NCBI GenBank assembly: GCA_023379355.1
Contig: JAMCUD010000094.1
Location: forward strand, 1 to 54,496
From: Thermoplasmatota archaeon
GTDB taxonomy: Archaea; Thermoplasmatota; Thermoplasmata; Thermoplasmatales; Thermoplasmataceae
Direction: 5' to 3'
Length of the DNA stretch: 54,496 nucleotides
Part shown: positions 1-13,522 of the stretch, in pieces
Layout: every line of letters begins with the position of its first letter
Numbering within the stretch: the stretch's first letter is position 1
Notes under the pieces: generated by a model
The model's database searches: none
Seen by the model: the letters and a program-made list of their open reading frames with translations, nothing else
What the model was told of the DNA's origin: nothing
Translations under genes and position numbers: made by a program

Positions 1-1
1 T

Positions 2-418
2 GTTCAGCATATACAGGGACTTTATGCTGCAGCTTTCAAGGGCGGAGTCTCCCCTAAAACAATCGCACTGATGCATCTCAGAATAAGTCAGATAAATGGA
101 TGCAGCTTTTGCGTGAACAGTGGATCAAAGGAAGCTCTTGAGAGGAAAGAAACTCCTGAGCGTGTCTACTCAGTGGCTGCCTGGAGAGATGCACCGTACT
201 ATACGAAAGCAGAACGCGCGGCCCTTGCTCTTGCTGAAAGTGTCACCAGGATAGCTGACAGACCGGATCCAGTTTCAGATGAGGTCTGGAATGAGGTGAG
301 GAAATACTACGACGAAAGAGGAATTTCTGCTCTTCTGGTGGCCATCGCAGTCACAAACGTTTTCAACAGATTCAATGTACCGCTCCGAACAGTGGCCGGT
401 GACCAGCCGAAATTCTAA
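2..418 (+). CDS. AhpD/carboxymuconolactone decarboxylase-family protein, 5' end outside window
   Basis: The reading frame is open from base 2 through the first visible ATG at 71, so the gene starts before the window and the ATG is internal. The translated upstream part (VQHIQGLYAAAF..., then SPKTIALMHLRISQINGCSFCV) matches the AhpD/CMD core, in which a helix rich in 'L.kLR.SqingC..C' carries the redox pair. The CxxC (C-S-F-C) is present and is followed by the expected 'A.aLAes.T' helix. Such proteins reduce peroxides or act as thiol-dependent decarboxylase-fold enzymes in the cytoplasm. About 138 residues are visible, close to the usual 140-150. Family assignment is firm; substrate is unknown. 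Nothing links it functionally to the ArsR gene 100 nt downstream. Confidence 0.8.
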   Translation, partial: VQHIQGLYAAAFKGGVSPKTIALMHLRISQINGCSFCVNSGSKEALERKETPERVYSVAAWRDAPYYTKAERAALALAESVTRIADRPDPVSDEVWNEVRKYYDERGISALLVAIAVTNVFNRFNVPLRTVAGDQPKF

Positions 419-518
419 TTATTTACCTTAGAGGTTATAGATTAAAGTGAAAAATTTTTCCCATGATTTCCTATTTGTCAATTGCATTTCACTTAAAATA
501 ATGCTGATGGTGTAAGGT

Positions 519-842
519 ATGGATGTGTTTTCAGCAGTATCGGACCCAACTCGCAGAAAGATGCTAGACATGCTCAGAAAGCAGCCTCTCACTGCCGGCG
601 AGATAGCGTTACACTTCACAGGCATTTCTCAACCTGGGATTTCAAAGCACCTGAAGGTGCTCAGAAATGCAATGCTTGTGAAGGTCACAATAAGGAAACA
701 GCAGCGCCTTTACTCTCTGAATATTTCCGGATTCAGGGACCTTGAAGAGTGGATATCCGAATACCGGGCTTTCTGGAGCAAAAACCTGGATAACCTCGGG
801 GAATTCCTGGAAAAAGATCATGATGATGGGCGGTTCAAGTGA
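519..842 (+). CDS. ArsR-family winged-helix transcriptional regulator
   Basis: This 107-residue protein opens with the ArsR signature 'MDVFSAVSDPTRRKMLDML' followed by 'TAGEIALHF..ISQPGISKHLKVL', the helix-turn-helix (about residues 24-48), and a wing 'V.IRKQQRLYSLN'. No CXC or similar metal site is visible, so it is probably not a metal sensor. It belongs to the ArsR group that sits upstream of AHSA1/SRPBCC genes. Its TGA overlaps the GTG start of the next gene (GTGA), which implies translational coupling. An AT-rich stretch around 490-503 lies about 22 nt before the ATG and may serve as a TATA element. It likely represses its own operon; the ligand is unknown. Confidence 0.87.
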   Translation: MDVFSAVSDPTRRKMLDMLRKQPLTAGEIALHFTGISQPGISKHLKVLRNAMLVKVTIRKQQRLYSLNISGFRDLEEWISEYRAFWSKNLDNLGEFLEKDHDDGRFK

Positions 843-1387
843 GCGAATCCTCGATGGATCAGCTTGGAAAAGTTATCCTGAATGGGGACCGCGCTTCCAT
901 AGAATTCCAGAGATACTTTCCATTTCCAGCAGAAAAAGTCTGGAGTGCAATCACAGACAACGATAAACTGGCGTCATGGTTCCTTACAAAAATAAGAATC
1001 CATCCTGGGCCATCCGGGAGCGTTGAATCCTGGTTTGGCTATCCAACACTTCATGTGCACGGAAGAATAAGGGTGTGGGACCCTCCAAACATACTGGAGC
1101 ATGAATGGAATTTAGATCCAGGGCCGGAACTTCCCGAGGGTGAATTCTCCATAATGAGGTGGGAACTTATAGACAAGAGTGGGGGGACCATTCTCAAACT
1201 CACACACCAAAACCTGACCAGGGAGACACTGACTGGGTTAAGAAGAGGTTTAGATCCGGCACCTGCTGAACACCTGATTCTTATGAGGCTTAATGCATAT
1301 CTGGCAGGCTCTTCGGGACCCAGCATAAACAGAGAGATGAGAATCCTCATGGAAACATATCACAGAATGCTGCAGAGAGATCCTTAA
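839..1387 (+). CDS. AHSA1/SRPBCC-domain protein
   Basis: The 182-residue product begins with a beta strand and 'FQRYFPFPAEKVWSAITDNDKLASWF', the typical opening of the AHSA1-like START/SRPBCC fold. A later 'RVWDPPNILEHEW' strand and a C-terminal helix fit the same fold. These helix-grip proteins bind small hydrophobic ligands; the specific role here cannot be read. The chosen start is GTG at 839 because it overlaps the ArsR stop by 4 bp; an in-frame ATG at 854 is an alternative. ArsR-AHSA1 overlapping pairs are a recurrent arrangement in bacteria and archaea, suggesting the regulator senses or controls the same ligand. Confidence 0.82.
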   Translation: MSESSMDQLGKVILNGDRASIEFQRYFPFPAEKVWSAITDNDKLASWFLTKIRIHPGPSGSVESWFGYPTLHVHGRIRVWDPPNILEHEWNLDPGPELPEGEFSIMRWELIDKSGGTILKLTHQNLTRETLTGLRRGLDPAPAEHLILMRLNAYLAGSSGPSINREMRILMETYHRMLQRDP

Positions 1388-1437
1388 GCCCTTGCCTGGC
1401 AAATCTTCAGGAATAACTCCCTAATTCCCCGGTTTTC

Positions 1438-1484
1438 CTGATGTTTTTTAGAATACAATCTCGGTGATTCTAAGGGCACATCAG
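1438..1484 (+). terminator. long imperfect hairpin between convergent genes
   Basis: Arms 1438-1454 and 1467-1484 pair over 17 bp with one bulged C and a 12-nt loop. The pairing needs three consecutive G-U wobbles, which only the plus-strand RNA can form; the minus strand would carry A-C mismatches there. It lies 50 nt after the AHSA1 stop and 77 nt before the convergent membrane gene's stop. Position and strand bias suggest RNA 3'-end formation or stabilisation for the ArsR-AHSA1 transcript. No long U-tract follows, so a simple intrinsic terminator is not proven. Confidence 0.45.
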
Positions 1485-1561
1485 CATCCGGACAATAATG
1501 AATCCCATTTTCATCGTGCTATGATGTTATTCCCTATGTGCAATATTCAGAAACTGGAGAA

Positions 1562-2077
1562 TCATGGACCCTTGATGCCGGACGAAGACTTCTTTGGGCC
1601 CACCTTTTCACTCAAACCTAGTGAGTGCCCGACATAGAAAAGACCAATTGATGCGCTAACCAGGGCTGAAACTGCGCTCATGGCCATTCCAATGGACCAG
1701 CCAAAAAATTGGCCGCTCGCCAGAAATAGTATGCCATTGACTATTGCTCCGATCACAGAGAACAGGGCAATAAGTGAAATGATCTTGAGGGATCTGTGCC
1801 TGTTCATAAATGAAAGCACAAGGAGAACTAAGGCGATTATCAGTATGACAAGACCATTCGCTATGTGTATAAGAACAAAGGTAAAATGGCTTCCAAAATA
1901 GAATAATGAGGCAAACAGGCCAAGGTGTTTTACCGGTATATTCACTTCAAGGTTGATCGTCATACCAAGCCAGAACTGCAGAGCGATCACCGCAAGAAAC
2001 AGGAAAAAAGTGTTTCTCATCCATACCAGATGTTTCGAGCCCAGACCTCTTTGTGATGCGGTTTTTGCATTTTCCAT
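1562..2077 (-). CDS. four-helix integral membrane protein of unknown function
   Basis: The 171-residue protein has four clear hydrophobic segments: about residues 23-42 (TFFLFLAVIALQFWLGM), 68-92 (FVLIHIANGLVILIIALVLLV), 97-120 (LKIISLIALFSVIGAIVNGILF) and 127-150. The N-terminus is polar and the C-terminus is short and basic (KKSSSG). A His in TM2 and another in the TM1-TM2 loop (GSHFTFVLIHIANG) could in principle bind heme, but there is no recognised cytochrome motif. No known family was identified. It is transcribed towards the hairpin at 1438-1484, and its start region abuts the IS element at 2152. Confidence 0.6.
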   Translation of the reverse strand: MENAKTASQRGLGSKHLVWMRNTFFLFLAVIALQFWLGMTINLEVNIPVKHLGLFASLFYFGSHFTFVLIHIANGLVILIIALVLLVLSFMNRHRSLKIISLIALFSVIGAIVNGILFLASGQFFGWSIGMAMSAVSALVSASIGLFYVGHSLGLSEKVGPKKSSSGIKGP

Positions 2078-2151
2078 TTAATTTCACTTACCCTTACGAA
2101 ATAAATTTTCTCTTGAACCCCTATCTGAACTTATTATATTAGGGTGTCTGG

Positions 2152-2164
2152 GAGTGTGGGACAC
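2152..2164 (+). repeat. left terminal inverted repeat of the intact IS
   Basis: GAGTGTGGGACAC is exactly complementary to the sequence at 3449-3461. It sits just downstream of the DUF2080 stop codon at 2167-2169. A 13/15 match to this end plus two inner bases occurs in isolation at 27496-27510. Confidence 0.85.
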
Positions 2165-2166
2165 AA

Positions 2167-2361
2167 TTACTCTTTAGCTTTTTCATGAACCGTTCCAGGA
2201 TTTTTTGTGATTATCACATAAACCCTTCTTCCTATGTATCTTCTGGGAATATCTGCCTTTCCTGAAGTACCTATTGGCGTTACTGTTCTCTCCAGAAACC
2301 CTTCTATCTCATCCTCATTCAAAACAAGATTGCCATTATTCAATTCCAGTCTTCTCACCAT
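2167..2361 (-). CDS. DUF2080-family transposon-encoded protein (AbrB-like)
   Basis: This 64-residue protein contains the pattern 'ERTVTPIGTSGKADIPRRYIGRRVYVII', which fits the DUF2080 family of small archaeal transposon-encoded proteins. The 'G-x-S-x-x-x-x-P-x-x-x-x-G-x-x-V' arrangement also resembles the SpoVT/AbrB swapped-hairpin DNA-binding fold. It is divergent from the transposase, with only 51 nt between the start codons. A 12-bp perfect palindrome sits 10 nt upstream of its ATG, and a closely similar site precedes the second DUF2080 gene at 7083-7235. This supports a role as IS-encoded regulator acting on its own promoter, which is an inference. The ATG at 2361 is the only sensible start. 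Confidence 0.8.
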   Translation of the reverse strand: MVRRLELNNGNLVLNEDEIEGFLERTVTPIGTSGKADIPRRYIGRRVYVIITKNPGTVHEKAKE

Positions 2362-2370
2362 GTATATGGA

Positions 2371-2382
2371 TATCTATAGATA
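2371..2382. promoter_or_regulatory. 12-bp palindrome (TATCTATAGATA), putative IS operator
   Basis: A perfect palindrome lies in the 51-nt divergent gap between the DUF2080 and transposase starts, next to GATATC at 2369-2374. A TATA-like 'tatttaac' at 2385-2392 lies 21-28 nt before the transposase ATG, so a protein bound at the palindrome could control both genes. Confidence 0.45.
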
Positions 2383-2412
2383 ACTATTTAACCTTTCTAT
2401 GCATGAACATCC

Positions 2413-3444
2413 ATGCCAAGGATCATGTCCAATGATATTCAATACAAGCTGGAGGAGATCAACAGCACACTGGGGAAGAAATACAACCTTGAACACCCCA
2501 GGAAGGAAAGGGACTGGCATACCTACGAGGAGGAGTTTTCCAAAAGGATCAAGCTGGCCATGAAGGATCTTGATCCCCTTATACAGGAAGCCGTATCTTC
2601 AATAAAGATCATTCCCGGACCAGGACACCGGCATTCATTACCACTGGATCAAAGGGTTAAGCTGCTTCTTATAAAGCAGCTTGTGGGTGAATCCAACAGG
2701 ATGTTTGCAAACATGCTTGCAATATTCTCCATGCTTTCCGGTATAGATATATCATACAAAACAGTTGAAAGACTATATTCTGATCATGAGGTCATAATTG
2801 CAGTGCACAATCTCCATGCACTGATACTGAAAAGGAAGGATGTAAAGAATTCAGACGCAACAGGTGCTGGGACCGGTTATTCGCTGACAGTGAAGAAGAA
2901 CTATGAATCCTATGCACAGAAACTGAAGGACATGGCAAAGGAAAATCCCGATCATGATAAGGATGCAAAGAAATCTAAAGGTCATAAGAAAAGGTTGTTT
3001 GCATATTCCTTTGCACTGATGGATCTGGAATCCAGAATGTACATAGCCTTTGGTTCATCCATGAAATCTGAGAGAGAGGCATATGACAGGGCGATGGATC
3101 TTCTTGCAATTATAGGAATACAAATGGATTCCATCCGTCTTGACAGGTATTATTCATCACCTTCATACATGGACAAGCTGGGGAATACGAAAGTGTTCGT
3201 AATACCAAAAAAGAACGCCACACTGAATGGATCACAGAAATGGAAGGATAGCATGAGGGATTTTGTTGAAAATACCATGCCATACCTGGAACAGTACCAT
3301 AAGAGAAGCAATTCCGAATCAGGATTTGCAGCTGACAAGAAGATGCTTGGTTGGAATGTGGCTCAGAAGAGGGATGACAGGATAGATCATGCACTGTTCT
3401 GCACAGGCGTCTGGCACAATATGTTCAATATGGGCAGGTCTTAG
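2413..3444 (+). CDS. DDE transposase, intact
   Basis: The 343-residue transposase has a retained DDE triad: D148 in 'NSDATGAGTG', D244 in 'IRLDRYYSS' and E302 in 'RSNSESGF'. The spacing and the 'DRYYSSPSYM' and 'SES.FAADK' contexts fit IS4/IS5-like RNase H-fold transposases of the type found in ISA1214/ISNCY archaeal elements. The N-terminus (about 1-110) is the DNA-binding part and contains 'QLVGESNRMFANML', typical of the helical segment before the catalytic core. It ends 5 nt before the right inverted repeat and has no stop or frameshift, so the element may be active. Family label is inferred; transposase identity is firm. Confidence 0.85.
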   Translation: MPRIMSNDIQYKLEEINSTLGKKYNLEHPRKERDWHTYEEEFSKRIKLAMKDLDPLIQEAVSSIKIIPGPGHRHSLPLDQRVKLLLIKQLVGESNRMFANMLAIFSMLSGIDISYKTVERLYSDHEVIIAVHNLHALILKRKDVKNSDATGAGTGYSLTVKKNYESYAQKLKDMAKENPDHDKDAKKSKGHKKRLFAYSFALMDLESRMYIAFGSSMKSEREAYDRAMDLLAIIGIQMDSIRLDRYYSSPSYMDKLGNTKVFVIPKKNATLNGSQKWKDSMRDFVENTMPYLEQYHKRSNSESGFAADKKMLGWNVAQKRDDRIDHALFCTGVWHNMFNMGRS

Positions 3445-3448
3445 AATA

Positions 3449-3461
3449 GTGTCCCACACTC
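3449..3461 (-). repeat. right terminal inverted repeat of the intact IS
   Basis: Reads GTGTCCCACACTC on the plus strand, the exact complement of 2152-2164. An open frame in phase with the YcaO gene runs back into this repeat (codon at 3450), so the coding frame of that gene and the IS end are fused without an intervening stop. Confidence 0.85.
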
Positions 3462-3512
3462 GTTGTCGTCATAGACTTAAAGTATAATAAGAAGTACACG
3501 TTTAAGCGGGTT

Positions 3513-4841
3513 TTGAGACATGGATTTTGCACCCACGCTTTCGACTTTGAAAATATTAGCCATTCAAAAGTTCAGAAAATCGCTCTTGATAAACTTATAG
3601 ATAAGGACATTGGCATTTTGAGATCAGTGGCGACCACTCAGGACATGGTTCCGAAGAAATACAGGGATTTGGTGAGCAAGTATAAAACTTACATTATTTG
3701 GTTCGAAAATCCCACCTTTCCGTTATATCCAAAGGTGAAATTTCTTGATACTGCTACTCACTGTGGCGTCGTCGGGGATGCTTTTGTTCCGGCCTTATAT
3801 GAAGCATTCGAAAGATATTCTATTTTAAACATCCCTCAACATATGCCCTATGCAGAAAGTTCTTACAATGACTTAATTGGCAATGGGTTAGAAGCCTTGG
3901 ACCCCACCGAATTCTGGCATTATTCTGAACAACAACTATCTAATAATAAACTTCTAAAGATGGAATTGGATTCCAATTTGAAGTGGGTTAAAGCGAATTC
4001 GACTAATGGAAAGCATATCCTAATCCCAGAAGATTTTGTTTATATAAATACTCTAATTCCGTCATCTTACGCGAACAATACAACGAGTGGTTGCGCTGCT
4101 CACAATAATGAGGAAAGTTCTCATCTCAATGCATTCCTGGAGTTAATTGAGCGAGACAATACCATTAGGCACTGGGCATCATTTAACTCTGTGGATCACA
4201 TCAACATAGAAAGTCTTCCAACATATGCTATAACGGTAGCCAATGCGTTGGATGAATTAGGTTACGACATGTTAGTATTGAACTCTTCTCTGTATCAAGG
4301 AATAACTGTCTTAGAAATTCTGCTGGTCAATAAGGAAGATAAATTCCCTAAAGCTATAATCTCATCAGCAGCCGGCCTCACCCCTATGAAAGCTTTAGGT
4401 TCAGCATTAAACGAAGCAATGGCAGGCTTTCAAATTTCCATGCACATCGAAGCCAAGAGGAAACCTTTCGTTCTTAATGAATCAAATGTTATCACACCAG
4501 AAGACCACGCAGCTTATTATAAAAACCCAGAAAAATTTAAGTTGCTTAGCCATTATTATCGTAGTCATAGGAATATAGATTTTTCTGAATTAGTAACTTC
4601 TAATTTTGAATTCAATAATATTTATAGACATATGGAAGAAAAATATAATATCAGGGCATTTTTTTACGATGTTACGCCTGATATCTTTAAGATATCCCAA
4701 GAAAAGGTAATTGTTTCACGATGTTTTTCTCCAGATTTAGTGCCTTTAAACTTTGGAACAGGTAATATTCCATATAAAGCAAAGCATCTAAAACTGCAAT
4801 TATCTGAACGAGCACTGATACACCCTCATCCATATGCTTAA
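3513..4841 (+). CDS. YcaO-domain ATP-dependent cyclodehydratase-like protein (azoline/TOMM type)
   Basis: The 442-residue protein shows the YcaO hallmarks. 'AxxEAFERYS' (E97, E100, R101) and 'SGCAAHNNEESSHLNAFLELIERD' (residues 192-215) are the two ATP/Mg-binding helices. The late strand 'VIVSRCFSPDLVPLNFG' matches the family's C-terminal strand. The chain ends in HPHPYA; a Pro-rich PxPxP-like tail marks YcaO enzymes that form azolines on RiPP peptides rather than thioamides. In that family the enzyme activates backbone amides with ATP so that Cys/Ser/Thr side chains cyclise. No E1-like/ocin-ThiF, TfuA or FMN dehydrogenase gene is visible nearby. The start is TTG at 3513; the frame is open upstream into the IS repeat and holds no ATG, so the 5' end may be lost. 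Base composition is clearly AT-richer than flanking core genes, consistent with transfer. Confidence 0.82.
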   Translation: MRHGFCTHAFDFENISHSKVQKIALDKLIDKDIGILRSVATTQDMVPKKYRDLVSKYKTYIIWFENPTFPLYPKVKFLDTATHCGVVGDAFVPALYEAFERYSILNIPQHMPYAESSYNDLIGNGLEALDPTEFWHYSEQQLSNNKLLKMELDSNLKWVKANSTNGKHILIPEDFVYINTLIPSSYANNTTSGCAAHNNEESSHLNAFLELIERDNTIRHWASFNSVDHINIESLPTYAITVANALDELGYDMLVLNSSLYQGITVLEILLVNKEDKFPKAIISSAAGLTPMKALGSALNEAMAGFQISMHIEAKRKPFVLNESNVITPEDHAAYYKNPEKFKLLSHYYRSHRNIDFSELVTSNFEFNNIYRHMEEKYNIRAFFYDVTPDIFKISQEKVIVSRCFSPDLVPLNFGTGNIPYKAKHLKLQLSERALIHPHPYA

Positions 4842-4843
4842 CT

Positions 4844-5332
4844 TTATGCAGTCTTAAATTCTTTGGCCATTATATATTGGTCCTTGATATTACCGGTAAC
4901 GTCGTATCCAGAATCTTTGTAGAACGATATGGCCCGTAAATTCATTTTATTTACTTCTAACTCACAACCATGAACCCCATATTTTTTCAGGTACCTTTCG
5001 GTAAATTGAATGAGGGCCTTACCATATCCCATTCTAAACTTGTCTGGTCTTAAATATAATCTCAACAATTTGGAGTATTTTTGAGAATAATAGTATTCAA
5101 TGAATCCCAAGCAGGTAGAATCTTCGAAAATACCCACGAATAGAATACCCTCATCATTCAAAGACCTTTTTATTTCTTCCTTAATGGTTTCTAATTTGTA
5201 TTTGTCTCTTAACCATTTTTCAATATATGCATCATCGTATATTCCTTGATAAGCTGAATACCATGAATCTGTAGCAATTTCTTGAACAGTATGTGCTTCT
5301 TCCTCATTCAATTTTCTGAAGATTAAACCCAT
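4844..5332 (-). CDS. GNAT-family N-acetyltransferase
   Basis: The 162-residue protein from the ATG at 5332 begins 'MGLIFRKLNEEEAHTVQEIA'. It carries the acetyl-CoA pyrophosphate loop region 'LYLRPDKFRMGYGKALIQF' (a variant of R/Q-x-x-G-x-G/A) and the C-terminal 'ELEVNKMNLRAISFYKDSGYDVTG' strand and helix. This is the RimI-like GNAT pattern, using acetyl-CoA to acetylate an amine. The same frame stays open to 5764, but the part beyond 5332 is antisense to a transposase fragment and is not part of the gene. Its stop lies 2 nt from the convergent YcaO stop and it shares that gene's AT-rich composition, so both may have arrived together. Whether it acetylates a RiPP product, a toxin or an antibiotic is unknown. 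Confidence 0.8.
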   Translation of the reverse strand: MGLIFRKLNEEEAHTVQEIATDSWYSAYQGIYDDAYIEKWLRDKYKLETIKEEIKRSLNDEGILFVGIFEDSTCLGFIEYYYSQKYSKLLRLYLRPDKFRMGYGKALIQFTERYLKKYGVHGCELEVNKMNLRAISFYKDSGYDVTGNIKDQYIMAKEFKTA

Positions 5333-5387
5333 AAATAACCTACTGATAATGTATGAATTTATAATCTTTAACTCTTCGTTTTGCCTT

Positions 5388-5790
5388 AGTGCGTTGCATA
5401 ATTCCCCTGTATAATGAAATACAGGGGAACGATTTGTTGTTATGACACCACAGCCAATCATATCTACAGGAAATAGAAGCACAAGAAGATATTGGGTCGG
5501 TTCCAACCGCAGGCATGACAGGTACAACCGATCTCTGGTGAACAGGGTTGAAGACCTCATGGATCCGTCATTCCTCGTGAACTGGAAGACTCTTCTTGAG
5601 GAAAACAACAGGGGAAAGAGGGGACACCCGTTCATGACGCCAAATGCATTCATAACATTCCTTGCGAAGCTGAGAGCGCTGTACAGTGTACCATTCCGGT
5701 CCCTTGATGGAATTGCCCACATATTCGCCAGAGTCACGGGCATCAGAACAGTGTGTGGTGACACATGCCTATTGAATTGTACAACGCACT
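5388..5790 (+). mobile_element. internally deleted IS (MITE-like, 0.4 kb)
   Basis: Inverted termini AGTGCGTTGCATAATTC (5388-5404) and GAATTGTACAACGCACT (5774-5790) match at 15 of 17 positions. Between them lies only the N-terminal third of a transposase running straight into the right end. Retention of both ends with loss of the middle is the structure of a non-autonomous, MITE-like derivative that could be mobilised by a full-length relative. A perfect 11-bp hairpin lies just inside the left end. 'TGCCT' occurs near both outer flanks but not directly abutting the ends, so a target duplication is not established. Confidence 0.65.
5402..5429. other. 11-bp perfect hairpin just inside the left IS end
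   Basis: TTCCCCTGTAT (5402-5412) and ATACAGGGGAA (5419-5429) are perfectly complementary around a 6-nt loop. It ends 12 nt before the ATG of the transposase remnant. Subterminal hairpins in ISs commonly block impinging transcription or translation of the transposase; that role is inferred. Confidence 0.55.
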
Positions 5791-5792
5791 AG
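5442..5792 (+). pseudogene. N-terminal fragment of an IS5/IS1182-like transposase
   Basis: The 116-codon frame contains 'LLEENNRGKRGHPFMTPNAFITFLAKLRALYSVPFRSLDG', the N-terminal helical region of IS5/IS1182-type transposases (G-R-P-x-x-Y-P-x-x-x-I and the '.lp.R...G' motif). After about residue 98 the sequence stops looking like transposase and runs into the right inverted repeat, ending at TAG. No catalytic DDE residues remain, so it cannot transpose by itself. Family placement is by motif only. Confidence 0.65.
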
Positions 5793-5812
5793 GTGCCTGA
5801 ACTCTTTCACAT

Positions 5813-5968
5813 TAACACATATTCCTGTAATCAGCTGAATCCGTAATATATGGGACCAGATCTAATTACGTAGTTTTACATTTCAATTAATACATATGCT
5901 TCCGACCCTTTATTTCAGCCATTTTCAGTGGAAACATGTAAATAGTATTAACACATGTACTAACACAT
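5813..5968 (+). repeat. three TAACACAT repeats in a gene-free spacer
   Basis: The octamer TAACACAT occurs at 5813-5820, 5949-5956 and 5961-5968; the last two are 12 bp apart. The spacer 5793-6060 (268 nt, AT-rich) otherwise holds no gene I can support. The repeats could be binding sites or debris of IS ends. Confidence 0.3.
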
Positions 5969-6060
5969 ATGTCAATGATCTATAGTATCTCCGAACCGAG
6001 TTAATTTTTTAGACAGCAATGGCTATCCATGCTGAGAGAAGGGGGAAGAGTGGCCTTCCT

Positions 6061-6087
6061 CAAACAGTCTTTATTCAGGACTGTTTG
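6061..6087. other. 9-bp perfect hairpin spanning the transposase stop codon
   Basis: CAAACAGTC (6061-6069) and GACTGTTTG (6079-6087) pair perfectly around a 9-nt loop that contains the TGA stop of the decayed transposase (minus strand). It may be a transcript 3' end or a subterminal IS structure. Confidence 0.4.
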
Positions 6088-7086
6088 CGGTTTCTTTCCT
6101 TTCTCTCCACGTTATTGACCATTGTTGTGTATGCTTCACTCAGTTCCATGAGATACTTCTTGAAACTCACCTCCTCATGATAGAAAAGATACCAGATTGA
6201 TTCAACAAGCTGTTCGTATGCGAAGAGGAAATACCTGACGCGGATATCCTTGCTCTTCGTCTTTATCCTGCCCTCGTCCAGGACCCTGAACATGGTCTTA
6301 ATGCGCCATCGGAACTTGTATTTCGCAATGATATGATCCAGATCGATGTCAGATGTGTTTGAGGCAAAGCACCAGTCATAGTATTCCTCTGATCGATGAT
6401 CGAATATCTGCTTCAGGAATGCAAGGTGGAAGGAATCACTGACCCTCCTTCCATTTTTGTACATGGAGAATTCATGCAGAATCACTTTCTTCTGGTTCTG
6501 GTACATGGATGAGAACTCCTCCTTCACCTAGGGATTCTTCGGCACGAATATGAGGTAGTTTATTTTTCGATCGTTCAATGACATGATCAGGTCCTTTGAG
6601 TAAAATCCACGATCAAACAGCAGAAGGTCTATATGATCCAGCAGAGGCAGAATGATATCCAGGACTGCTGATATCTCTGATGGCATGTCATTGCCCATGG
6701 GTGATGGTATTGATATTATGGGAAGCCTCAGGTCCCTGTTCACTATGCTTGCGGTAAGATAGGAAAACTTTCCCGTTACGCCATGATCACCCGTCCATCC
6801 ATGTATCCACAGCGAATCCCGATCGCCGTAGAAATCCTCATGGGTGTAGTCGAATGCAATCATTATGGGGTCTGTATTGTCAGATATGGATTTCCTGGAC
6901 AGTGCAGATATACGGGAGAATAGGGAATCCCTTATGCCTTTCACTGTATCCTTGACAGGATAATGCTCTATGGCGAGATGCATGGAATCCGTTCAGGTAT
7001 CCCGGATCATGCTTGAGTCTCAGAGCATCGTTGGTGAAGCGTTCCAGAGCGCTTAAAGATGTCAGGAGTCTGGTGGGGCTGTTCAT
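6075..7086 (-). pseudogene. decayed ISH3/IS4-like DDE transposase (frameshift plus nonsense)
   Basis: The gene starts at ATG 7086 and its frame is lost near 6990-6985, where the coding phase shifts to the frame starting 'MHLAIEHYPVKD'. It is interrupted again by TAG at 6530-6528 directly after 'FVPKNP', while the same frame continues to 6075. Joined, the pieces give a normal-sized transposase of about 335 residues. Catalytic contexts are 'MIAFDYTHEDFYGD' (first Asp), 'LLFDRGFYSKDL' (second Asp) and 'FRWRIKTMFRVLDE' (Glu after the Y/R-rich segment), typical of ISH3/IS4-type archaeal elements. Two disabling mutations make it a pseudogene. Its ATG overlaps the stop of the upstream DUF2080 gene by 4 bp. 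Confidence 0.8.
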
Positions 7087-7235
7087 AGTACTACTAAATA
7101 AACAGTTCTTCCTATGAATTCCTTAGGGCAATCCACCTTTGCACTTGTTCCGAATCTTGTCACTGTCTTCACGAAGAATCCCTGTATGCCTTCTATCTCA
7201 AGTCTGTTTGTCACATTCATCGGTATCTTTTTCAT
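7083..7235 (-). CDS. second DUF2080-family transposon-encoded protein
   Basis: This 50-residue gene runs ATG 7235-7233 to TGA 7085-7083. It reads MKKIPMNVTNRLEIEG..., then 'GFFVKTVTRFGTSAKVDCP' and 'KEFIGRTVYLVVL', the same pattern as the DUF2080 protein at 2167-2361. It is short but intact, and its TGA overlaps the transposase ATG (ATGA), so the two were translationally coupled. The upstream palindrome at 7246-7257 matches the one before the first DUF2080 gene. Unlike the first IS, here it is co-directional with the transposase. Confidence 0.75.
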   Translation of the reverse strand: MKKIPMNVTNRLEIEGIQGFFVKTVTRFGTSAKVDCPKEFIGRTVYLVVL

Positions 7236-7257
7236 TAGATATCAAATAGATATCTAT
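7236..7257. promoter_or_regulatory. TAGATATC repeat and 12-bp palindrome before DUF2080 gene 2
   Basis: TAGATATC (7236-7243) abuts the start codon, and the perfect palindrome ATAGATATCTAT (7246-7257) follows. The nonamer ATAGATATC recurs in the same relative place before the first DUF2080 gene. Shared sites in front of two otherwise different ISs suggest an operator for the DUF2080 protein. Confidence 0.45.
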
Positions 7258-7325
7258 GAACTATGAATAAATATTTTGATCATTAAGAAGAAAGCTAAGA
7301 ATTTATTATCGTATTATTTAGATAA

Positions 7326-7523
7326 TTATCTTCGGAGATACTGATAGATCCTGTAAGCATAAAAACCGTTCGATCTCATAAGGCATCAGCCCGCAGGCTG
7401 AGTGTTTTTCTTTCTGATTTCATGCTTGAATACCTCCCGGAGAATTATACGCATGTGCCTGAAGACTGTATAACAGCATTTGTTGCTATCTGGCATAACC
7501 TTCCAGTTAAGACCTCAATATGA
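7326..7523 (+). pseudogene. possible C-terminal transposase remnant
   Basis: An open frame of 65 codons with no credible start ends at TGA 7521. Its tail 'CITAFVAIWHNLPVKTSI' resembles in pattern the C-terminus of the intact transposase ('ALFCTGVWHNMFNMGRS'). The bases just after the stop (ACTGTCCCCCAGG at 7538-7550) vaguely resemble that IS's right end. I read it as the degraded right end of another copy, marking the edge of the mobile island. The evidence is weak and the frame could be chance. Confidence 0.3.
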
Positions 7524-7562
7524 AGAAAATTGTAAGGACTGTCCCCCAGGAGATTGAATTAG

Positions 7563-7570
7563 ATTTAAAT
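7563..7570 (+). promoter_or_regulatory. TATA-like box for the methyltransferase gene
   Basis: ATTTAAAT is centred about 33 nt before the ATG at 7599, with no Shine-Dalgarno in between. This fits an archaeal promoter making a leaderless or near-leaderless mRNA. Confidence 0.4.
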
Positions 7571-7598
7571 CCTGACTTCTTTTATCATATGAGTTGTA

Positions 7599-8684
7599 AT
7601 GGAGCCTCCGAGACCATTGAGAAATGCTGAAAATGACCATACAGATATCCTTGACAGAGACTCCATCCTCTATTTTCTGAAAACCATGGAGAATGAGCCG
7701 CTGCTTGACCAGATTCGAATAACTGCAACTCATCTCAAAAAATTGTCAGAATCATCTGCATGGGACTCTATGCCGGACCCGGGCATTTCAAAGCAGCACC
7801 TGGAATCTGACCTGAATCAGATAATTGAGGCATACTCCATTGAAAGGACGAAATACTACATAAGCCGGTTGATAAAATCCATGACTGTTGTGAGGAAGAC
7901 CAGATACAGCGATATAAACCTCAATAGATGGAAGGAATATGACGATATACTTACTGACAGCCTCTGGATTGAGAAGAGCAGGGATAGAGGTTATGGGCAC
8001 AATGCGGACTACTGGGGAAATTTTATACCGCAGATCCCGCATCAGATGATCAGAAGGTTTACCCGTGAGGGTGACTGGATACTGGATACGTTTTCAGGAA
8101 GCGGCACCACACTCCTGGAGTGCATGAAACTCTCAAGAAATGGAATAGGCCTTGATATTTCCAGTGAAGCGGTGGAAATTGCAAGAAAGAATCTCAGAAA
8201 AGTAGAGAGGGAAGGGCCCAGCAAGACCGTTGAGGTGGTAAACGCGGACAGCACCAGGGCAAATTTCTCTGAGATCATTGGCAGATTCGGCGTCAGTCGG
8301 GTACAGTTTGTAATGATGCATCCGCCCTACTGGGATATTATAAAGTTCAGCAGGGACGATAACGACCTGTCCAATGCAACATCCATTGAGAGTTTCCTCC
8401 TTGGAATCAGAAAAGTAGCTTCTGAAGCTTATAGAGTCCTGGAAAAAGGAAGGTTTCTTACCCTTGTTATTGGAGACAAATATAGCGAAGGAGAATGGGT
8501 CCCGCTTGGATTCAAATGCATGAATGCCCTTATGGAGGAGCATTTCAGTTTGAAGTCCATAATAGTCAAGAATTTCGATTCGACCAGAGGAAAGCAGAAA
8601 CAGAAAGACCTCTGGAGATACAGGGCCCTGCTTGGAGGTTTCTACGTCTTCAAACATGAATATATTTTCCTGTTTCAGCGCTGA
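7599..8684 (+). CDS. site-specific DNA methyltransferase (N4-cytosine/N6-adenine type, HPPYWD motif)
   Basis: The 361-residue protein has the SAM-binding motif 'DTFSGSGTTLLEC' (163-175), the acidic strand 'GIGLDISSEAVEIARKNL' (183-199) and a catalytic motif 'MMHPPYWDIIKFS' (239-251). In that motif the usual D/N-PPY is H-PPY followed by WD. The order SAM motif then PPY, plus the late 'YRVLEKGRFLTLVIGD', fits solitary N6_N4_Mtase-family enzymes that methylate DNA bases. An N-terminal helical region (1-140) has no recognised domain. No restriction endonuclease gene is adjacent. A second, Dam-like methyltransferase lies 0.7 kb downstream on the same strand, so the pair may be a host epigenetic or defence module. 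The recognition sequence cannot be read. Confidence 0.82.
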   Translation: MEPPRPLRNAENDHTDILDRDSILYFLKTMENEPLLDQIRITATHLKKLSESSAWDSMPDPGISKQHLESDLNQIIEAYSIERTKYYISRLIKSMTVVRKTRYSDINLNRWKEYDDILTDSLWIEKSRDRGYGHNADYWGNFIPQIPHQMIRRFTREGDWILDTFSGSGTTLLECMKLSRNGIGLDISSEAVEIARKNLRKVEREGPSKTVEVVNADSTRANFSEIIGRFGVSRVQFVMMHPPYWDIIKFSRDDNDLSNATSIESFLLGIRKVASEAYRVLEKGRFLTLVIGDKYSEGEWVPLGFKCMNALMEEHFSLKSIIVKNFDSTRGKQKQKDLWRYRALLGGFYVFKHEYIFLFQR

Positions 8685-8717
8685 ATGTCCAAATTGGGTC
8701 CATCAAACGCCTTAGGG

Positions 8718-9257
8718 CTATTCCCTGCTGGGGATAAGTATCCATATCACAGTCAGTGATAGCAGTATTCCAATAAACCATATCAGCGCAATCTCAGACC
8801 CGAATATAACGTGCCCAAATATCCTGAAATACTTATCAGCGGCAAGGAAATATATGAACTCATAAAATATCAGAAGGGCCTGGATTCCAGTCAGGTACTC
8901 GTACCATGTCTGGTTGCCACTTCTCAGATTTTCTGCAATAATCGCCAGGAATACTCCTGTAACAAGAAAGGCCATTCCGGCAAGGAAAGACATTGACAGC
9001 ATTGCCACTATAATTCCGTTGATCACTGAAAGCGCCATCAGTTCAATCTGCAGGGATTTGAGAAAACTGTTTTTGGCCTGTTCTGCATATTTCTGATCCT
9101 CTACGTTCGAGGAGGATCTGCTCACCCACAGATATCTGTTTATGTTTCCAACTATGAAGAGCAATGTCGGAAGAATGGCTAGCAGGTGGAGATTAAGAAG
9201 ATTCATGGACTTCATTCCATTTGAATTGATGGATTCTGAAATAAGACTCCCATGCAT
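8718..9257 (-). CDS. membrane protein of unknown function between two methyltransferases
   Basis: The 179-residue protein has about five hydrophobic segments: 24-42 (LHLLAILPTLLFIVGNI), 75-92, 93-110 (AGMAFLVTGVFLAII), 122-142 and 152-175 (IALIWFIGILLSLTVIWILI). A charged loop at 45-68 (SSSNVEDQKYAEQAKNS) lies after the first segment. I recognise no family. It is opposite in strand to both flanking methyltransferases and convergent with the first (33 nt between stops). The start at ATG 9257 could also be the Met at residue 15 or 18. Its position inside the methyltransferase pair is notable but does not show a shared function. Confidence 0.6.
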   Translation of the reverse strand: MHGSLISESINSNGMKSMNLLNLHLLAILPTLLFIVGNINRYLWVSRSSSNVEDQKYAEQAKNSFLKSLQIELMALSVINGIIVAMLSMSFLAGMAFLVTGVFLAIIAENLRSGNQTWYEYLTGIQALLIFYEFIYFLAADKYFRIFGHVIFGSEIALIWFIGILLSLTVIWILIPSRE

Positions 9258-9404
9258 TTTAACCTTTTATGTAACCCTCAGTGTAGGTTCCACCTGATCT
9301 CCTGGGGATGATCCCGGGATCATGGGAACCGAGTTCTGTGAACAACGAATGCCCTCTGTCACTCTCTATAAACATTTTTAGCCCAGCACCCCTTCAGGTA
9401 TTTG

Positions 9405-10229
9405 ATGCCCTATCTCAGACTTTTCAAGTATCCCGGTTCAAAACTATCAATGATTGAAGACATAGAAGAGGTTTTCCTGAGATCGGGTTGCAGAACCCTG
9501 GTTGATGTATTCGGCGGTTCAGGGAGCGTTTCCCTGAATTTAAGGTCCCAGATGACCGTGTTCAATGACATCGATCCAGAGATTGTTAACCTTTTCAGAA
9601 CAATAAAGAGCTCCCCTGGCCCAATTTCCGATTATCTTGAAAGGCGTGTTCAGGAAGAACGCAGAAACAGAAGAGGCAGAAACGGCGCTGGAAGTGACAG
9701 GGATCAACAGTCTGAGACCAGCCCTGCCCCACCTTCCCTCAGAAAACAGATAAAAGGGGTCAGTGTTGAGAGATCAATTTATTTTCTGGAAACCCATATA
9801 ACGGGATTCGGAGGATCTGGTGGAACTTATCGGACCAGGGAGAGATCTGTTTCCCCATTTTTCAGGCACCTGTATCATAATTTCCCAGAAATATGGAAGA
9901 AGGTATCCAGGTTAACAATTGAGAACCTTGACTTCAGGGCCCTTGTGAGCAGGTATGATTCCCCTGATGTTTTCTTCTACTTTGACCCCCCCTATCATTC
10001 CAGGGAATGGTACAGCTTTAACTTCAGGGAACAGGATTATTCCAACCTGAAGGATCTTATTTCAGGTATCCGGGGAAAGTATCTCCTGACAGTAGATTCA
10101 GGGGATCTCTTTCTGGAGGATGTCTTCGGGGAGCCAGACTTCATAAAGAGGTACGAGAACCAGAACCAGCACCCGGTTTACGGCAGCAGACCACCTAGAA
10201 ACCGTTCTTTCTATACCAACGTAATCTGA
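9405..10229 (+). CDS. Dam-like (D12 class) N6-adenine DNA methyltransferase
   Basis: The protein begins 'MPYLRLFKYPGSK', the Dam/D12 N-terminal motif. It carries 'LVDVFGGSGSVSLN' (SAM site, about 32-45), 'VFNDIDPEIVNLFR' (52-65) and the catalytic 'FYFDPPYHSREWY' (DPPY about 194-197). D12 enzymes methylate N6 of adenine. The start is placed at ATG 9405; a TTG directly before it would add one residue. A charged, low-complexity stretch (about 80-115, rich in R, N, Q, S, P) interrupts the target-recognition region and is unusual for the family. A TATA-like 'tataaaca' lies near 9366-9373. There is no endonuclease neighbour, so it looks like an orphan methyltransferase. Confidence 0.85.
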   Translation: MPYLRLFKYPGSKLSMIEDIEEVFLRSGCRTLVDVFGGSGSVSLNLRSQMTVFNDIDPEIVNLFRTIKSSPGPISDYLERRVQEERRNRRGRNGAGSDRDQQSETSPAPPSLRKQIKGVSVERSIYFLETHITGFGGSGGTYRTRERSVSPFFRHLYHNFPEIWKKVSRLTIENLDFRALVSRYDSPDVFFYFDPPYHSREWYSFNFREQDYSNLKDLISGIRGKYLLTVDSGDLFLEDVFGEPDFIKRYENQNQHPVYGSRPPRNRSFYTNVI

Positions 10230-10300
10230 TAATGCTCCATTTGTCTCATGCCCGAATGCTTTCCTGATCAGGGCAACCAATTATCTCTTTTCACCAGGAC

Positions 10301-11479
10301 TCAGATGTTGAAAGCAATCATGACAAGTGACATAATCCCAAGAGGCAGGACATCTTCATCGGAGGTGAACTTTGAGGAGTGGTTGGGGTAGATTAATCCC
10401 TTTTTCTCGTTTCTGGTTCCGAGGAAATAGAAGGTCCCCGGGGCTTTTTCCAGGAACCTTGAGACGTCCTCTCCCCCCATTATTGAATCGATGTCCAGTA
10501 CCTTTGCACCCTTTATTTCAGAGAGTAATTTTCGGACCTTATCGGTCTGTTCAGGATCATTATAGGTGACCGGATATGCATTATCCTTGAACTTTATTGT
10601 GGATTCTGCCCCATAACTTTTCACCAGTTGGGAGATTATATCTGTTATTTTCTTCTTTACATCTGACCTCATGTTTTCCTCGAGTGTTCTTATTGTACCC
10701 TCCATTCTAAGTTCATCTGGAATTATGTTATCCTTGGTTCCAGCATTGATCATGCATACAGATATCACCAGAGGTCTGGACTGCGACATATATCTGGCCC
10801 TGATACCGTAAAGCGCGTTTATAACCTGAGCACTAATGAAAACAGGGTCTATGGTTTCGTCTGGTGCGGATCCGTGTCCGCCTTTTCCCCTTATTTTTAT
10901 GTGAAAATGATCCGGTGCGGCCATTATTGGCCCGCTTCTCAGGGCGAAAGTTCCAGATGGATAGTTGCTCATAATGTGGATGCCGAATACATTGTTAACT
11001 TTGGGATTCTCCAGAGCCCCATCCTCGATCATTGGCATTGCTCCACCTATGCCACCATCCTCCTCTGCCGGCTGGAATATTAGCTTGACGTTGTTTTTCA
11101 GTTCATCCCTGTGCCGGGATATAATGGATGCTGCGCCAAGAAGCATTGCCACATGGTTGTCATGACCGCATGCGTGCATAACGCCGCTCACCTTTGAGGA
11201 GAATGGTAACCCTGTTTCCTCCATAACTGGAAGAGCATCCATATCGGCCCTGAGAGCTATTGTTCTTGTTGGATTCTTCCCCGGTATTAGGCCAACAACC
11301 CCGTTTCCGCCTACCCTTGTTCTAACCTCAATGCTAAGGTTTCTCAGGTGATCAGCAATAAAATGTGCAGTATTTTTTTCATAAAAAGAAAGTTCCGGGT
11401 TCTCATGGAGGTGACGCCTGATTCTTATGACCTCCCCCTTAATATCTTCAGTTTCGCTGATGATTGTGGCTTGATCCAT
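10301..11479 (-). CDS. M20-family amidohydrolase/peptidase
   Basis: The 392-residue protein has the M20D layout: 'RRHLHENPELSFYE' near the N-terminus, 'ALRADMDALPV', the metal site 'HACGHDNHVAML', the 'FQPAEEDGGIGGAMPMIEDGAL' segment with the catalytic Glu, the dimerisation domain 'GKGGHGSAPDETIDP', and a C-terminal 'IMGGEDVSRFLEKAPGTFYFLG'. These enzymes hydrolyse N-acyl or carboxy-terminal amide bonds of amino acids (hippurate or indole-acetyl-amino-acid type) in the cytoplasm with one or two metal ions. No signal peptide is seen. It is convergent with the Dam-like gene and 142 nt from divergent glyA. A second M20 protein lies at 51.8 kb. Substrate is not determinable. Confidence 0.9.
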   Translation of the reverse strand: MDQATIISETEDIKGEVIRIRRHLHENPELSFYEKNTAHFIADHLRNLSIEVRTRVGGNGVVGLIPGKNPTRTIALRADMDALPVMEETGLPFSSKVSGVMHACGHDNHVAMLLGAASIISRHRDELKNNVKLIFQPAEEDGGIGGAMPMIEDGALENPKVNNVFGIHIMSNYPSGTFALRSGPIMAAPDHFHIKIRGKGGHGSAPDETIDPVFISAQVINALYGIRARYMSQSRPLVISVCMINAGTKDNIIPDELRMEGTIRTLEENMRSDVKKKITDIISQLVKSYGAESTIKFKDNAYPVTYNDPEQTDKVRKLLSEIKGAKVLDIDSIMGGEDVSRFLEKAPGTFYFLGTRNEKKGLIYPNHSSKFTSDEDVLPLGIMSLVMIAFNI

Positions 11480-11621
11480 GGGTTATGATGTTCGACTGGT
11501 ATTTAAGATGTAGATTATGCCCTAACAGGAATCTCGGGTCATAAGGATTATCCGCAGTTTGTGTTCCTCTCAACATTACAGAGCCTCCATACATCTTTAT
11601 AATTCACAATAATAAAGTTCC

Positions 11622-12914
11622 ATGTCGAACCTTGAAAGCGCGCTTAAAATAAGGGCTCTGGCACGCAATCACCAGAAACTGTTCTCAGAGAGTGTTCCCC
11701 TAATAGCGTCGGAGAACATTATGAGCCCTCTTGCAATGGAGATGCTAACCACCGATCTGGGCTTCAGATACGCAGAGGGTCTTCCGCATCACAGGTATTA
11801 CCAGGGAAATGGGTTCGTTGATCAGATCGAGGACCTCACAACCGATCTTGGAAAAAAACTTTTCAATGCAAAACAGTGTGATCCCAGGCCAATATCCGGT
11901 ACCAACGCAAACACCTCTGTAATTTATGGCCTTCTTAAACCGGGAGAAAAAATAACGGTTCCTGACCTTGCCGGTGGAGGACACATAAGTGCCGCCTCTT
12001 TCGGCGCAGTAGGTCTGAGGGGACTGAAGGTGTTCAATTATCCATACGATCCTGAAACCATGACAGTCCTCCCTGATGAAGCATCAAAGCTTATAATTAG
12101 GGAAAAACCAAAGGTATGCCTGTTAGGGCAGTCCGTTTTTCTATTCCCCACCCCCATGAAGGAAATGGCAGATGCCTTTCAGGAAGCTGGATCCAGGGTA
12201 TGGTACGACGGGGCACATGTACTTGGACTTATTGCCGGTGGAAAATTCCAGAAACCACTTAGTGAGGGCGCGGACATAGTTACCGGGAGCACTCACAAAA
12301 CATTTCCGGGCCCTCAGAGGGGAATTGTTCTCGGGAATACCGGGGAAGATGTGTGGAAGGGTGTCCAGAGAGGGTTGTTCCCCGGTACCCTGAGCAATCA
12401 TCATCTGAATTCCATGGCAGCTCTTGGTGTTACAATTGCTGAAGAACTGGAATTCGGGAAAGACTATGCCGAAGCCATCATAAGAAACAGCAAGACCCTG
12501 GCAGGGACTCTTGCGGAAAATGGAATAAAAATACTTGGTGAATCCAGAGGATATACAGAATCCCACACCCTTGTTGCCGATGTCAGCAGCAATGGAGGAG
12601 GCCGGAGAGTTGCTGAGGATCTGGAGAAAGCCGGAATAATAGTGAACAAGAACCTGCTGCCTGGAGACAGCAGCAAAGATTCCCAGAACCCGAGCGGAAT
12701 AAGAATAGGGACCCAGGAGATCACAAGAATTGGCTTTCAAAAGGATGATGTCATTGAGCTTGGAAGACTCATGTCAGATCTCATCCAGGGAAAGAACGGC
12801 ATTGAAAAAACCAGATCCATGGCTCTGGAAATGAAGGCGCGCTTCGAGGAGATAAAGTACTGCTTCGGCAGCATGCGTCCCTACAGTTACTTTGAAATAT
12901 TCAACGCAAGGTGA
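11622..12914 (+). CDS. glyA: serine hydroxymethyltransferase
   Basis: The 430-residue PLP enzyme interconverts serine and glycine with a C1 carrier (folate or methanopterin type). Visible landmarks are 'VPLIASENIMSP' (26-37), 'HHRYYQGNGFVDQIE' (56-70), 'WYDGAHVLGLI' with the PLP-ring Asp near 196, and the PLP lysine K226 in 'TGSTHKTFPGPQRG'. Length and divergence match archaeal GlyA. The stop TGA overlaps the GTG of pdxT by 4 bp, and gcvT follows 6 nt after pdxT. The operon thus ties glycine/C1 metabolism to PLP supply. A TATA-like 'ctttataatt' lies about 22 nt before the ATG. Confidence 0.95.
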   Translation: MSNLESALKIRALARNHQKLFSESVPLIASENIMSPLAMEMLTTDLGFRYAEGLPHHRYYQGNGFVDQIEDLTTDLGKKLFNAKQCDPRPISGTNANTSVIYGLLKPGEKITVPDLAGGGHISAASFGAVGLRGLKVFNYPYDPETMTVLPDEASKLIIREKPKVCLLGQSVFLFPTPMKEMADAFQEAGSRVWYDGAHVLGLIAGGKFQKPLSEGADIVTGSTHKTFPGPQRGIVLGNTGEDVWKGVQRGLFPGTLSNHHLNSMAALGVTIAEELEFGKDYAEAIIRNSKTLAGTLAENGIKILGESRGYTESHTLVADVSSNGGGRRVAEDLEKAGIIVNKNLLPGDSSKDSQNPSGIRIGTQEITRIGFQKDDVIELGRLMSDLIQGKNGIEKTRSMALEMKARFEEIKYCFGSMRPYSYFEIFNAR

Positions 12915-13516
12915 TCACCGTGATCATTGGAGTTGTAGGGTTCCAGGGTGATGTTGAGGAACATGTGAATTCCACAGTTGCTGCAGGCAAAGGTAGGGTA
13001 ACAGAGGTAAAGGATCTGAGAAGAGTGTCTGATTTTGATGGTATTTCCGGCCTGATAATACCTGGTGGTGAAAGTACAACAATATACAAGCTCATAAACA
13101 ACTATGGAATTTACAACAAGATCAGAAACGAGGTAAGGAAAGGGCTCCCGGTCATGGGGACATGCGCAGGTCTTATTTTGTTATCAAGAGACACTGGAGA
13201 CTCCTCAGTCAGGGGTATGGACCTTATAGATGCCGTTGTATCAAGAAATGCCTATGGAAGACAGAAGGAGTCATTCATAGGAACTATAGAAATAAAAGGA
13301 ATTGGAACATACAGGGCCCCATTCATAAGAGCTCCGAAAATTGTAAGGGCATCGGAGAGTTACATTATTGGAAGATGTGGAGATGAACCTGTCATGATAC
13401 ATAATGAGAATGTACTTGGACTGACATTTCACCCGGAGCTGACGAAGGATCGAAGAGTTCATTCCATGTTTCTGGACATTGCAGAGAGGGAGGGGTACAT
13501 TTCCACTGGAGAGTAG
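12911..13516 (+). CDS. pdxT: pyridoxal 5'-phosphate synthase glutaminase subunit PdxT
   Basis: The protein matches the class I glutaminase partner of PdxS, which feeds ammonia for PLP synthesis. It shows 'GVVGFQGDVEEHV', the oxyanion segment 'LIIPGGEST', the nucleophile C85 in 'VMGTCAGLIL', and His174/Glu176 in 'LTFHPEL'. The GTG at 12911 overlaps the glyA stop. A second in-frame GTG at 12920 would give the family's usual N-terminal length (xIGVVGFQGD) and is an equally good start. No pdxS is present in this window, so it must be encoded elsewhere. Coupling to glyA, a PLP enzyme, makes functional sense. Confidence 0.93.
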   Translation: MITVIIGVVGFQGDVEEHVNSTVAAGKGRVTEVKDLRRVSDFDGISGLIIPGGESTTIYKLINNYGIYNKIRNEVRKGLPVMGTCAGLILLSRDTGDSSVRGMDLIDAVVSRNAYGRQKESFIGTIEIKGIGTYRAPFIRAPKIVRASESYIIGRCGDEPVMIHNENVLGLTFHPELTKDRRVHSMFLDIAEREGYISTGE

Positions 13517-13522
13517 ATTGAT

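Follow-up and report, generated by a model that had tools for sequence, protein, structure and literature searches.

A YcaO gene cut by an insertion sequence in a Thermoplasmatales archaeon, a probable remnant of a short fused azoline cyclodehydratase

The YcaO gene and its junction with an insertion sequence

The window analyzed here comprises the 54,496 nucleotides of contig JAMCUD010000094.1 (assembly GCA_023379355.1, positions 1–54,496), from an archaeon of the Thermoplasmatota. Judged by its glyA product, which shares 79% identity with the one from "Thermoplasmatales archaeon UBA447", the host lineage appears to be of the Thermoplasmatales type. Close to the left end lies a YcaO gene, called as an open reading frame (ORF) of 442 aa on the + strand (3513–4841) with a TTG start, a first in-frame ATG at 3645, and the C terminus IHPHPYA. 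Its stop ends at 4841 and, after a gap of 2 nt, the stop of a convergent GNAT acetyltransferase gene begins at 4844 (4844–5332, − strand; 162 aa; PF00583, 52 bits). The pair is bracketed by an insertion sequence (IS; 2152–3461) and a 403-bp element (5388–5790). Both genes are AT-rich, with 36.8% GC for YcaO and 32.9% for GNAT compared with a sliding mean of 44.2% (standard deviation, 2.8) across the window, and the 12 lowest-GC windows of 1,329 bp, which overlap, start at 3501–4601. An earlier note on this DNA had picked out these features, along with two ATP-binding motifs and an HPHPYA tail, and had read them as a transferred azoline-type locus for ribosomally synthesized and post-translationally modified peptides (RiPPs), either a new stand-alone type or one broken by an IS. 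The features themselves are confirmed.

The YcaO domain is complete. It matches PF02624 with 118.1 bits (cut-off, 25.7) over residues 90–389, its structure model is confident, and the residues of the ATP-site motifs EAFERYS and ELIERD (E115, E118, R119, E228, E231, R232, and D233, in 460-residue numbering) are the same in all 17 rows of an alignment. We take E115, E118, E228, and E231 to bind ATP and Mg.

The left IS (2152–3461, + strand) is 1,310 bp long, has the terminal inverted repeat (TIR) GAGTGTGGGACAC, and carries an IS5-like transposase ORF (2413–3444) that scores 30 bits with NF033579, the cut-off being 140. The stretch 2100–3520 was matched, often only in part, in 52 of the 117 genomes of the order that were searched. 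Many of the long matches have their left end near 2152, and for most the right end lies no more than about 2 bases from 3461; because they end at about the same positions elsewhere, the IS boundary is not a guess. It is the right end of this IS that cuts the YcaO gene.

A search of 5.8 billion proteins with the YcaO sequence returned 13 matches, namely two near-copies, one long relative, and 10 more distant YcaOs. The first near-copy, P0001, has 442 aa, differs from the window protein at two positions, shows the same called frame on a 2,014-base contig, and heads a cluster of seven member sequences with one contig listed. The second, P0002, comes from a 1,401-base contig and is a 252-aa piece of 97% identity whose first residue is an internal Met; its seven changes in 252 residues include C194S in the SGCAA motif, where P0018 likewise has S. 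The long relative, P0003, has 594 aa and is 34% identical over the whole window protein. With P0003 as the query, full-length relatives total eight (558–595 aa), and a further search with the alignment of these eight gave no additional members. In all eight, 112–144 residues precede an HPxCxH motif, a CPxC motif lies ahead of it, and the C terminus reads PHP[YF][SA], like the HPHPYA of the window a PxP ending short of the full PxPxP looked for in the SagD type, which extracts of one paper describe as canonical (PMC12338566).

Upstream of the TTG, the window frame has no stop as far as the IS end, and the encoded VVVIDLKYNKKYTFKRV-LRHGFCTHAFD gives an ungapped alignment to the part of the relatives that leads up to and includes HPxCxH. 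The whole in-frame remnant (VVVIDLKYNKKYTFKRVLRHGFCTHAFD; 3462–3545, + strand) aligns with the end of their N-terminal domain. With the register fixed by the HxxCxH motif, the score of the 17 codons that separate the TTG from the IS end (3461) was reached by 58 of 53,943 stop-free window segments and by 16 of 5,000 shuffles, and that of the nine residues from the TTG onward by four of 73,338 segments. Plain tblastn of the N-terminal domains, which made no use of the register, gave collinear matches at 3468–3545 and 3459–3545 at E values of only 1.1 and 6.5. Because the upstream frame is open to the IS end and matches the relatives, the YcaO gene very probably once continued upstream of the TTG; the IS end marks the cut, and the TTG at 3513 is very probably not a natural gene start. 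About 28 last residues of what is probably a partner-like domain still stand in frame at 3462–3545, where the earlier note had seen no partner. Of its two suggestions, the locus broken by an IS is borne out; the stand-alone type gives way to the 3′ part of a longer two-domain protein, and a stand-alone YcaO as the natural form of the gene was rejected on the family-matching codons between the IS end and the TTG.

The window copy lacks 125 residues in P0003 numbering, or 93 by P0020, and with them half of the CPxC/CxH layout. The lost 5′ part was not found elsewhere in the window, where tblastn of the eight N-terminal domains gave nothing below an E value of 0.13. Nor does the left flank of the IS hold any trace of it; what this flank does encode is a small hydrophobic protein, in an open frame at 1562–2077 without a Pfam match. 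Ten further IS loci were fetched, three of which hold a complete copy with both flanks: one (L064) has a perfect 9-bp target duplication, one (L071) matches at eight of nine positions, and one (L065) has none. The window copy, at five of nine, has none. Because a simple insertion would leave both the target duplication and the missing front part, these observations suggest that deletion or recombination accompanied or followed the insertion. Beside the IS end, a TATA-like TATAATA (3483–3489) lies 24–30 nt before the TTG, weak evidence for a working short enzyme.

Type and origin of the YcaO protein

The best of three NCBIfam models is the SagD-type TIGR03604, which the window protein matches over residues 89–441 with 135.3 bits, under the curated cut-off of 219.25; full-length P0003 reaches 164.6 bits, likewise under it. 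The McrA-thioamidation type (TIGR03266) was rejected, its 25.9 bits against a cut-off of 365 falling far behind the SagD-type score. The window YcaO is thus predicted from its profile scores to be nearest to the azoline type, as the earlier note had held, and neither a thioamide type nor a core-gene neighborhood, the two findings the note had named as speaking against its proposal, turned up. Among the distant matches of the protein search, P0004, P0006, P0009, and P0021 carry a nitroreductase domain (PF00881) and YcaO in one chain.

In a 29-row tree, the window protein and P0001 join the eight full-length relatives with a support of 100/99, the eight being separated from the window pair with a support of 95/92. 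YcaO was found in none of the 117 genomes of UBA447's order, in a scan in which five of 14 controls gave a signal. Across the phylum, a profile of the window protein, P0002, and P0003 matched eight of the 389 genomes drawn; one match (L036) lies between E1-like and SagB-like genes and the other seven are short partial matches in frames of about 400 aa. Four of the eight entered the tree (L040–L043, in which no frame was found, were left out), and all four fall outside the window clade. We conclude that the YcaO gene is foreign to this lineage and was probably acquired horizontally, which upholds the transfer proposed in the earlier note.

The only relative that bears an organism name comes from Candidatus Levybacteria (Patescibacteria). 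A patescibacterial donor is a lead and not a result, because the other relatives carry no organism names. No YcaO was found in genome contigs (one single-protein scan), in viral contigs (two scans), or in phages, and plasmids yielded distant YcaOs in 36 records, where no match spanned as much as 80% of the query and identity was at most 28% in the 10 rows listed.

The GNAT gene and the genomic surroundings

The GNAT protein is nearest to the Thermoplasmatales spermidine-acetyltransferase model NF041158 (95 bits; cut-off, 225), and its best relatives in the order's genomes are 55, 53, and 50% identical. Matches occur in 25 of the 117 genomes at E ≤ 1e-20 and in 116 at E ≤ 0.001. In the eight loci checked of the 20 fetched, the relatives' GNAT genes have 30–41% GC, in seven cases below their own flanks (33–42%). 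Because GNAT kin are AT-rich too, AT-richness and neighborhood do not tie this gene to YcaO. A place in the pathway, which the earlier note had considered for it, is not supported, given the kin in the order, the convergent orientation, and the low GC of the relatives' genes; the family of this GNAT occurs in many Thermoplasmatales, and the gene probably has no connection with the YcaO pathway. A lower-GC source may nevertheless account for the whole 1.9-kb YcaO–GNAT stretch.

To the right of this pair, the 403-bp element (5388–5790) has TIRs AGTGCGTTG/CAACGCACT and no evident target duplication, and overlaps an ORF (5442–5792) that by eye reads like a transposase piece. Two same-frame ORFs farther on (6075–6527 and 6528–6983, − strand), split by a stop, read by eye like one decayed transposase, a further apparent mobile element (6075–6983) to the right of the YcaO/GNAT cargo.

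A Pfam scan of 43 window ORFs, which left out eight of the 40 ORFs of at least 150 aa listed for 12900–54496, showed no partner family (second YcaO, ThiF/E1, or nitroreductase). Among 32 ORFs of at least 20 aa at 3440–5420, no precursor-like small ORF was noticed by eye.

The locus sits in a stretch (1–11500) that appears strain-variable, with almost no counterparts near glyA in 35 glyA loci of relatives. There, glyA was matched in 35 of 35, SNO in 17, and gcvT in 16, and these three genes, SNO encoding a glutamine amidotransferase, are tightly packed in the window (11622–14611) in an order repeated in several relatives (L001 and L002, for example). To the left of glyA, only two DNA methyltransferase genes were matched, at 7599–8684 in one relative and at 9402–10229 in two (N6_N4_Mtase and D12 class); no restriction enzyme family was found among the window ORFs scanned.

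The proposed cyclodehydratase and its alternatives

Azoline cyclodehydratases turn Cys, Ser, or Thr residues into azolines: the side chain attacks the peptide backbone, and the amide is activated by YcaO at the expense of ATP. We consider it probable that the locus is the horizontally acquired remnant of a short fused enzyme of this kind, decapitated by the IS, with an open catalytic domain and a pathway that is very probably dead. A gene for a short C–D-fused azoline cyclodehydratase would have entered this Thermoplasmatales lineage, most likely horizontally. Its intact product would have fused a reduced E1/ocin-ThiF-like domain, devoid of the leader-binding N terminus, to the ATP-using YcaO domain, and the small E1-like domain would have docked a separate leader-binding (F-type) protein. 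The first ~93–125 codons would then have been lost to the IS, either because adjoining DNA was deleted on insertion or because IS copies recombined with each other, and the truncated gene would now probably be drifting despite its open frame. With so little of the docking domain left, and with neither an F protein nor a precursor nor a dehydrogenase found in the window, azoline formation there is very unlikely.

Extracts of PMC4603692 describe comparable enzymes. The short C–D-fused cyclodehydratases of heterocycloanthracin and of many thiopeptide clusters depend on an F protein, and their C domain is shorter by about 100 residues at the N terminus, where the leader-binding part would lie (PMC4603692). 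The window family resembles them in its probably fused C and D domains and in that the model of a full-length relative begins opposite LynD residue 115; it differs in that P0003 has no TIGR03882 match and the window copy keeps hardly any of the front domain. The haloazolisin cyclodehydratases of halophilic archaea are fused, with a truncated and barely recognizable C domain (PMC4603692). They are alike in being archaeal, fused, and truncated, a likeness by description and not by sequence, whereas eight full-length members of the window clade were found, of which the only one with a name is bacterial, and the truncation in the window was made by an IS. The cyanobactin heterocyclases LynD and TruD share the YcaO domain and probably the C–D fusion fold with the relatives but have the N-terminal region that these lack, and identity in the aligned parts is about 15–18%. 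In another Thermoplasmatota genome (L036), E1-like, YcaO, and SagB-like dehydrogenase genes stand in a row (9–3520; translations read by eye, only YcaO matched by profile), probably an azoline RiPP cluster of another lineage of the phylum; unlike the fused relatives it has three separate genes, and its YcaO lies outside the window clade.

Several points weigh against our reading. The relatives' N-terminal domain is probably a short E1/ocin-ThiF-like domain without the leader-binding start, but its match to three E1/ocin-ThiF sequences was not significant (hhalign E value of 0.16, probability 0.4%), hmmsearch gave no significant match to this family either, and TIGR03882 was not matched. The structure model is also poor in this domain (pLDDT about 39–77). 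Because profile similarity is not significant and the model is poor, the domain is identified from the extent of its fold and the arrangement of its motifs. For the YcaO part, the TIGR03604 score stays under the curated cut-off. Elsewhere in the genome, beyond the window, there may be a precursor or an F protein. Finally, the frame has stayed open over 442 codons and a near-copy represents seven sequences, which would also fit selection on the shortened protein.

This last point favors a different explanation, in which the shortened protein works as a stand-alone YcaO, read from the TATA-like sequence with the TTG or the ATG as its start, and needs no E1-like partner to modify a peptide or protein. 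The frame is open, the ATP-site residues are kept, the domain model is confident, the protein collection holds the 442-aa near-copy, and stand-alone D proteins exist, for example in bottromycin clusters according to extracts of PMC4603692. Against this, the relatives with which the window protein groups are longer and have two domains, only half of the CPxC/CxH layout is left, neither a precursor-like ORF nor a partner family was seen among the ORFs read or scanned, and P0002 has diverged even in the SGCAA motif, though P0018 shares that serine; we regard a working stand-alone enzyme as unlikely. A bolder version, in which a tiny clade of leader-domain-less C–D cyclodehydratases, by name only from Patescibacteria, crossed between bacteria and Thermoplasmatales archaea and the IS-trimmed YcaO domain still modifies peptides or proteins on its own in one archaeal population, is a doubtful conjecture.

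The junction could also be an assembly chimera that joins the IS of one organism to the YcaO gene of another. Matches to this IS are frequent in the order's genomes, and such repeats can mislead assemblers; moreover, the IS copy has no target duplication and the genes to the left of glyA show almost no synteny. Yet P0001 has the same 442-aa frame and P0002 starts at an internal Met, as if both lacked the upstream extension, though their assemblies are perhaps not independent of that of the window, and the family of the adjoining GNAT is one that occurs in the same order. We think a chimera very improbable. It is highly improbable that YcaO and GNAT were transferred together as a single RiPP module, as the earlier note read them: the genes are adjacent, AT-rich, and placed between mobile elements, but they are convergent, GNAT kin in the order are of similarly low GC, and GNAT occurs in 25 of the 117 genomes (E ≤ 1e-20) as against none for YcaO.

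Read as the remnant of a fused cyclodehydratase, the locus gives an archaeal sister to a clade of short two-domain YcaO proteins that is very rare, with eight full-length members found and one named (Levybacteria), and indicates that such genes reach an order in which 117 genomes searched gave no YcaO. It also carries a warning, as a "stand-alone YcaO" called beside an IS can be a decapitated larger protein. According to extracts of a 2025 study of acid-mine-drainage sediments, YcaO-bearing RiPP clusters occur in candidate phyla radiation (CPR) genomes, with YcaO linked to MCR thioamidation (PMC12153355). Our finding may bear on those genes, in that the family with the one named CPR protein scores nearer the azoline type (P0003). 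The rare clade of intact relatives is a more interesting object than the relic itself.
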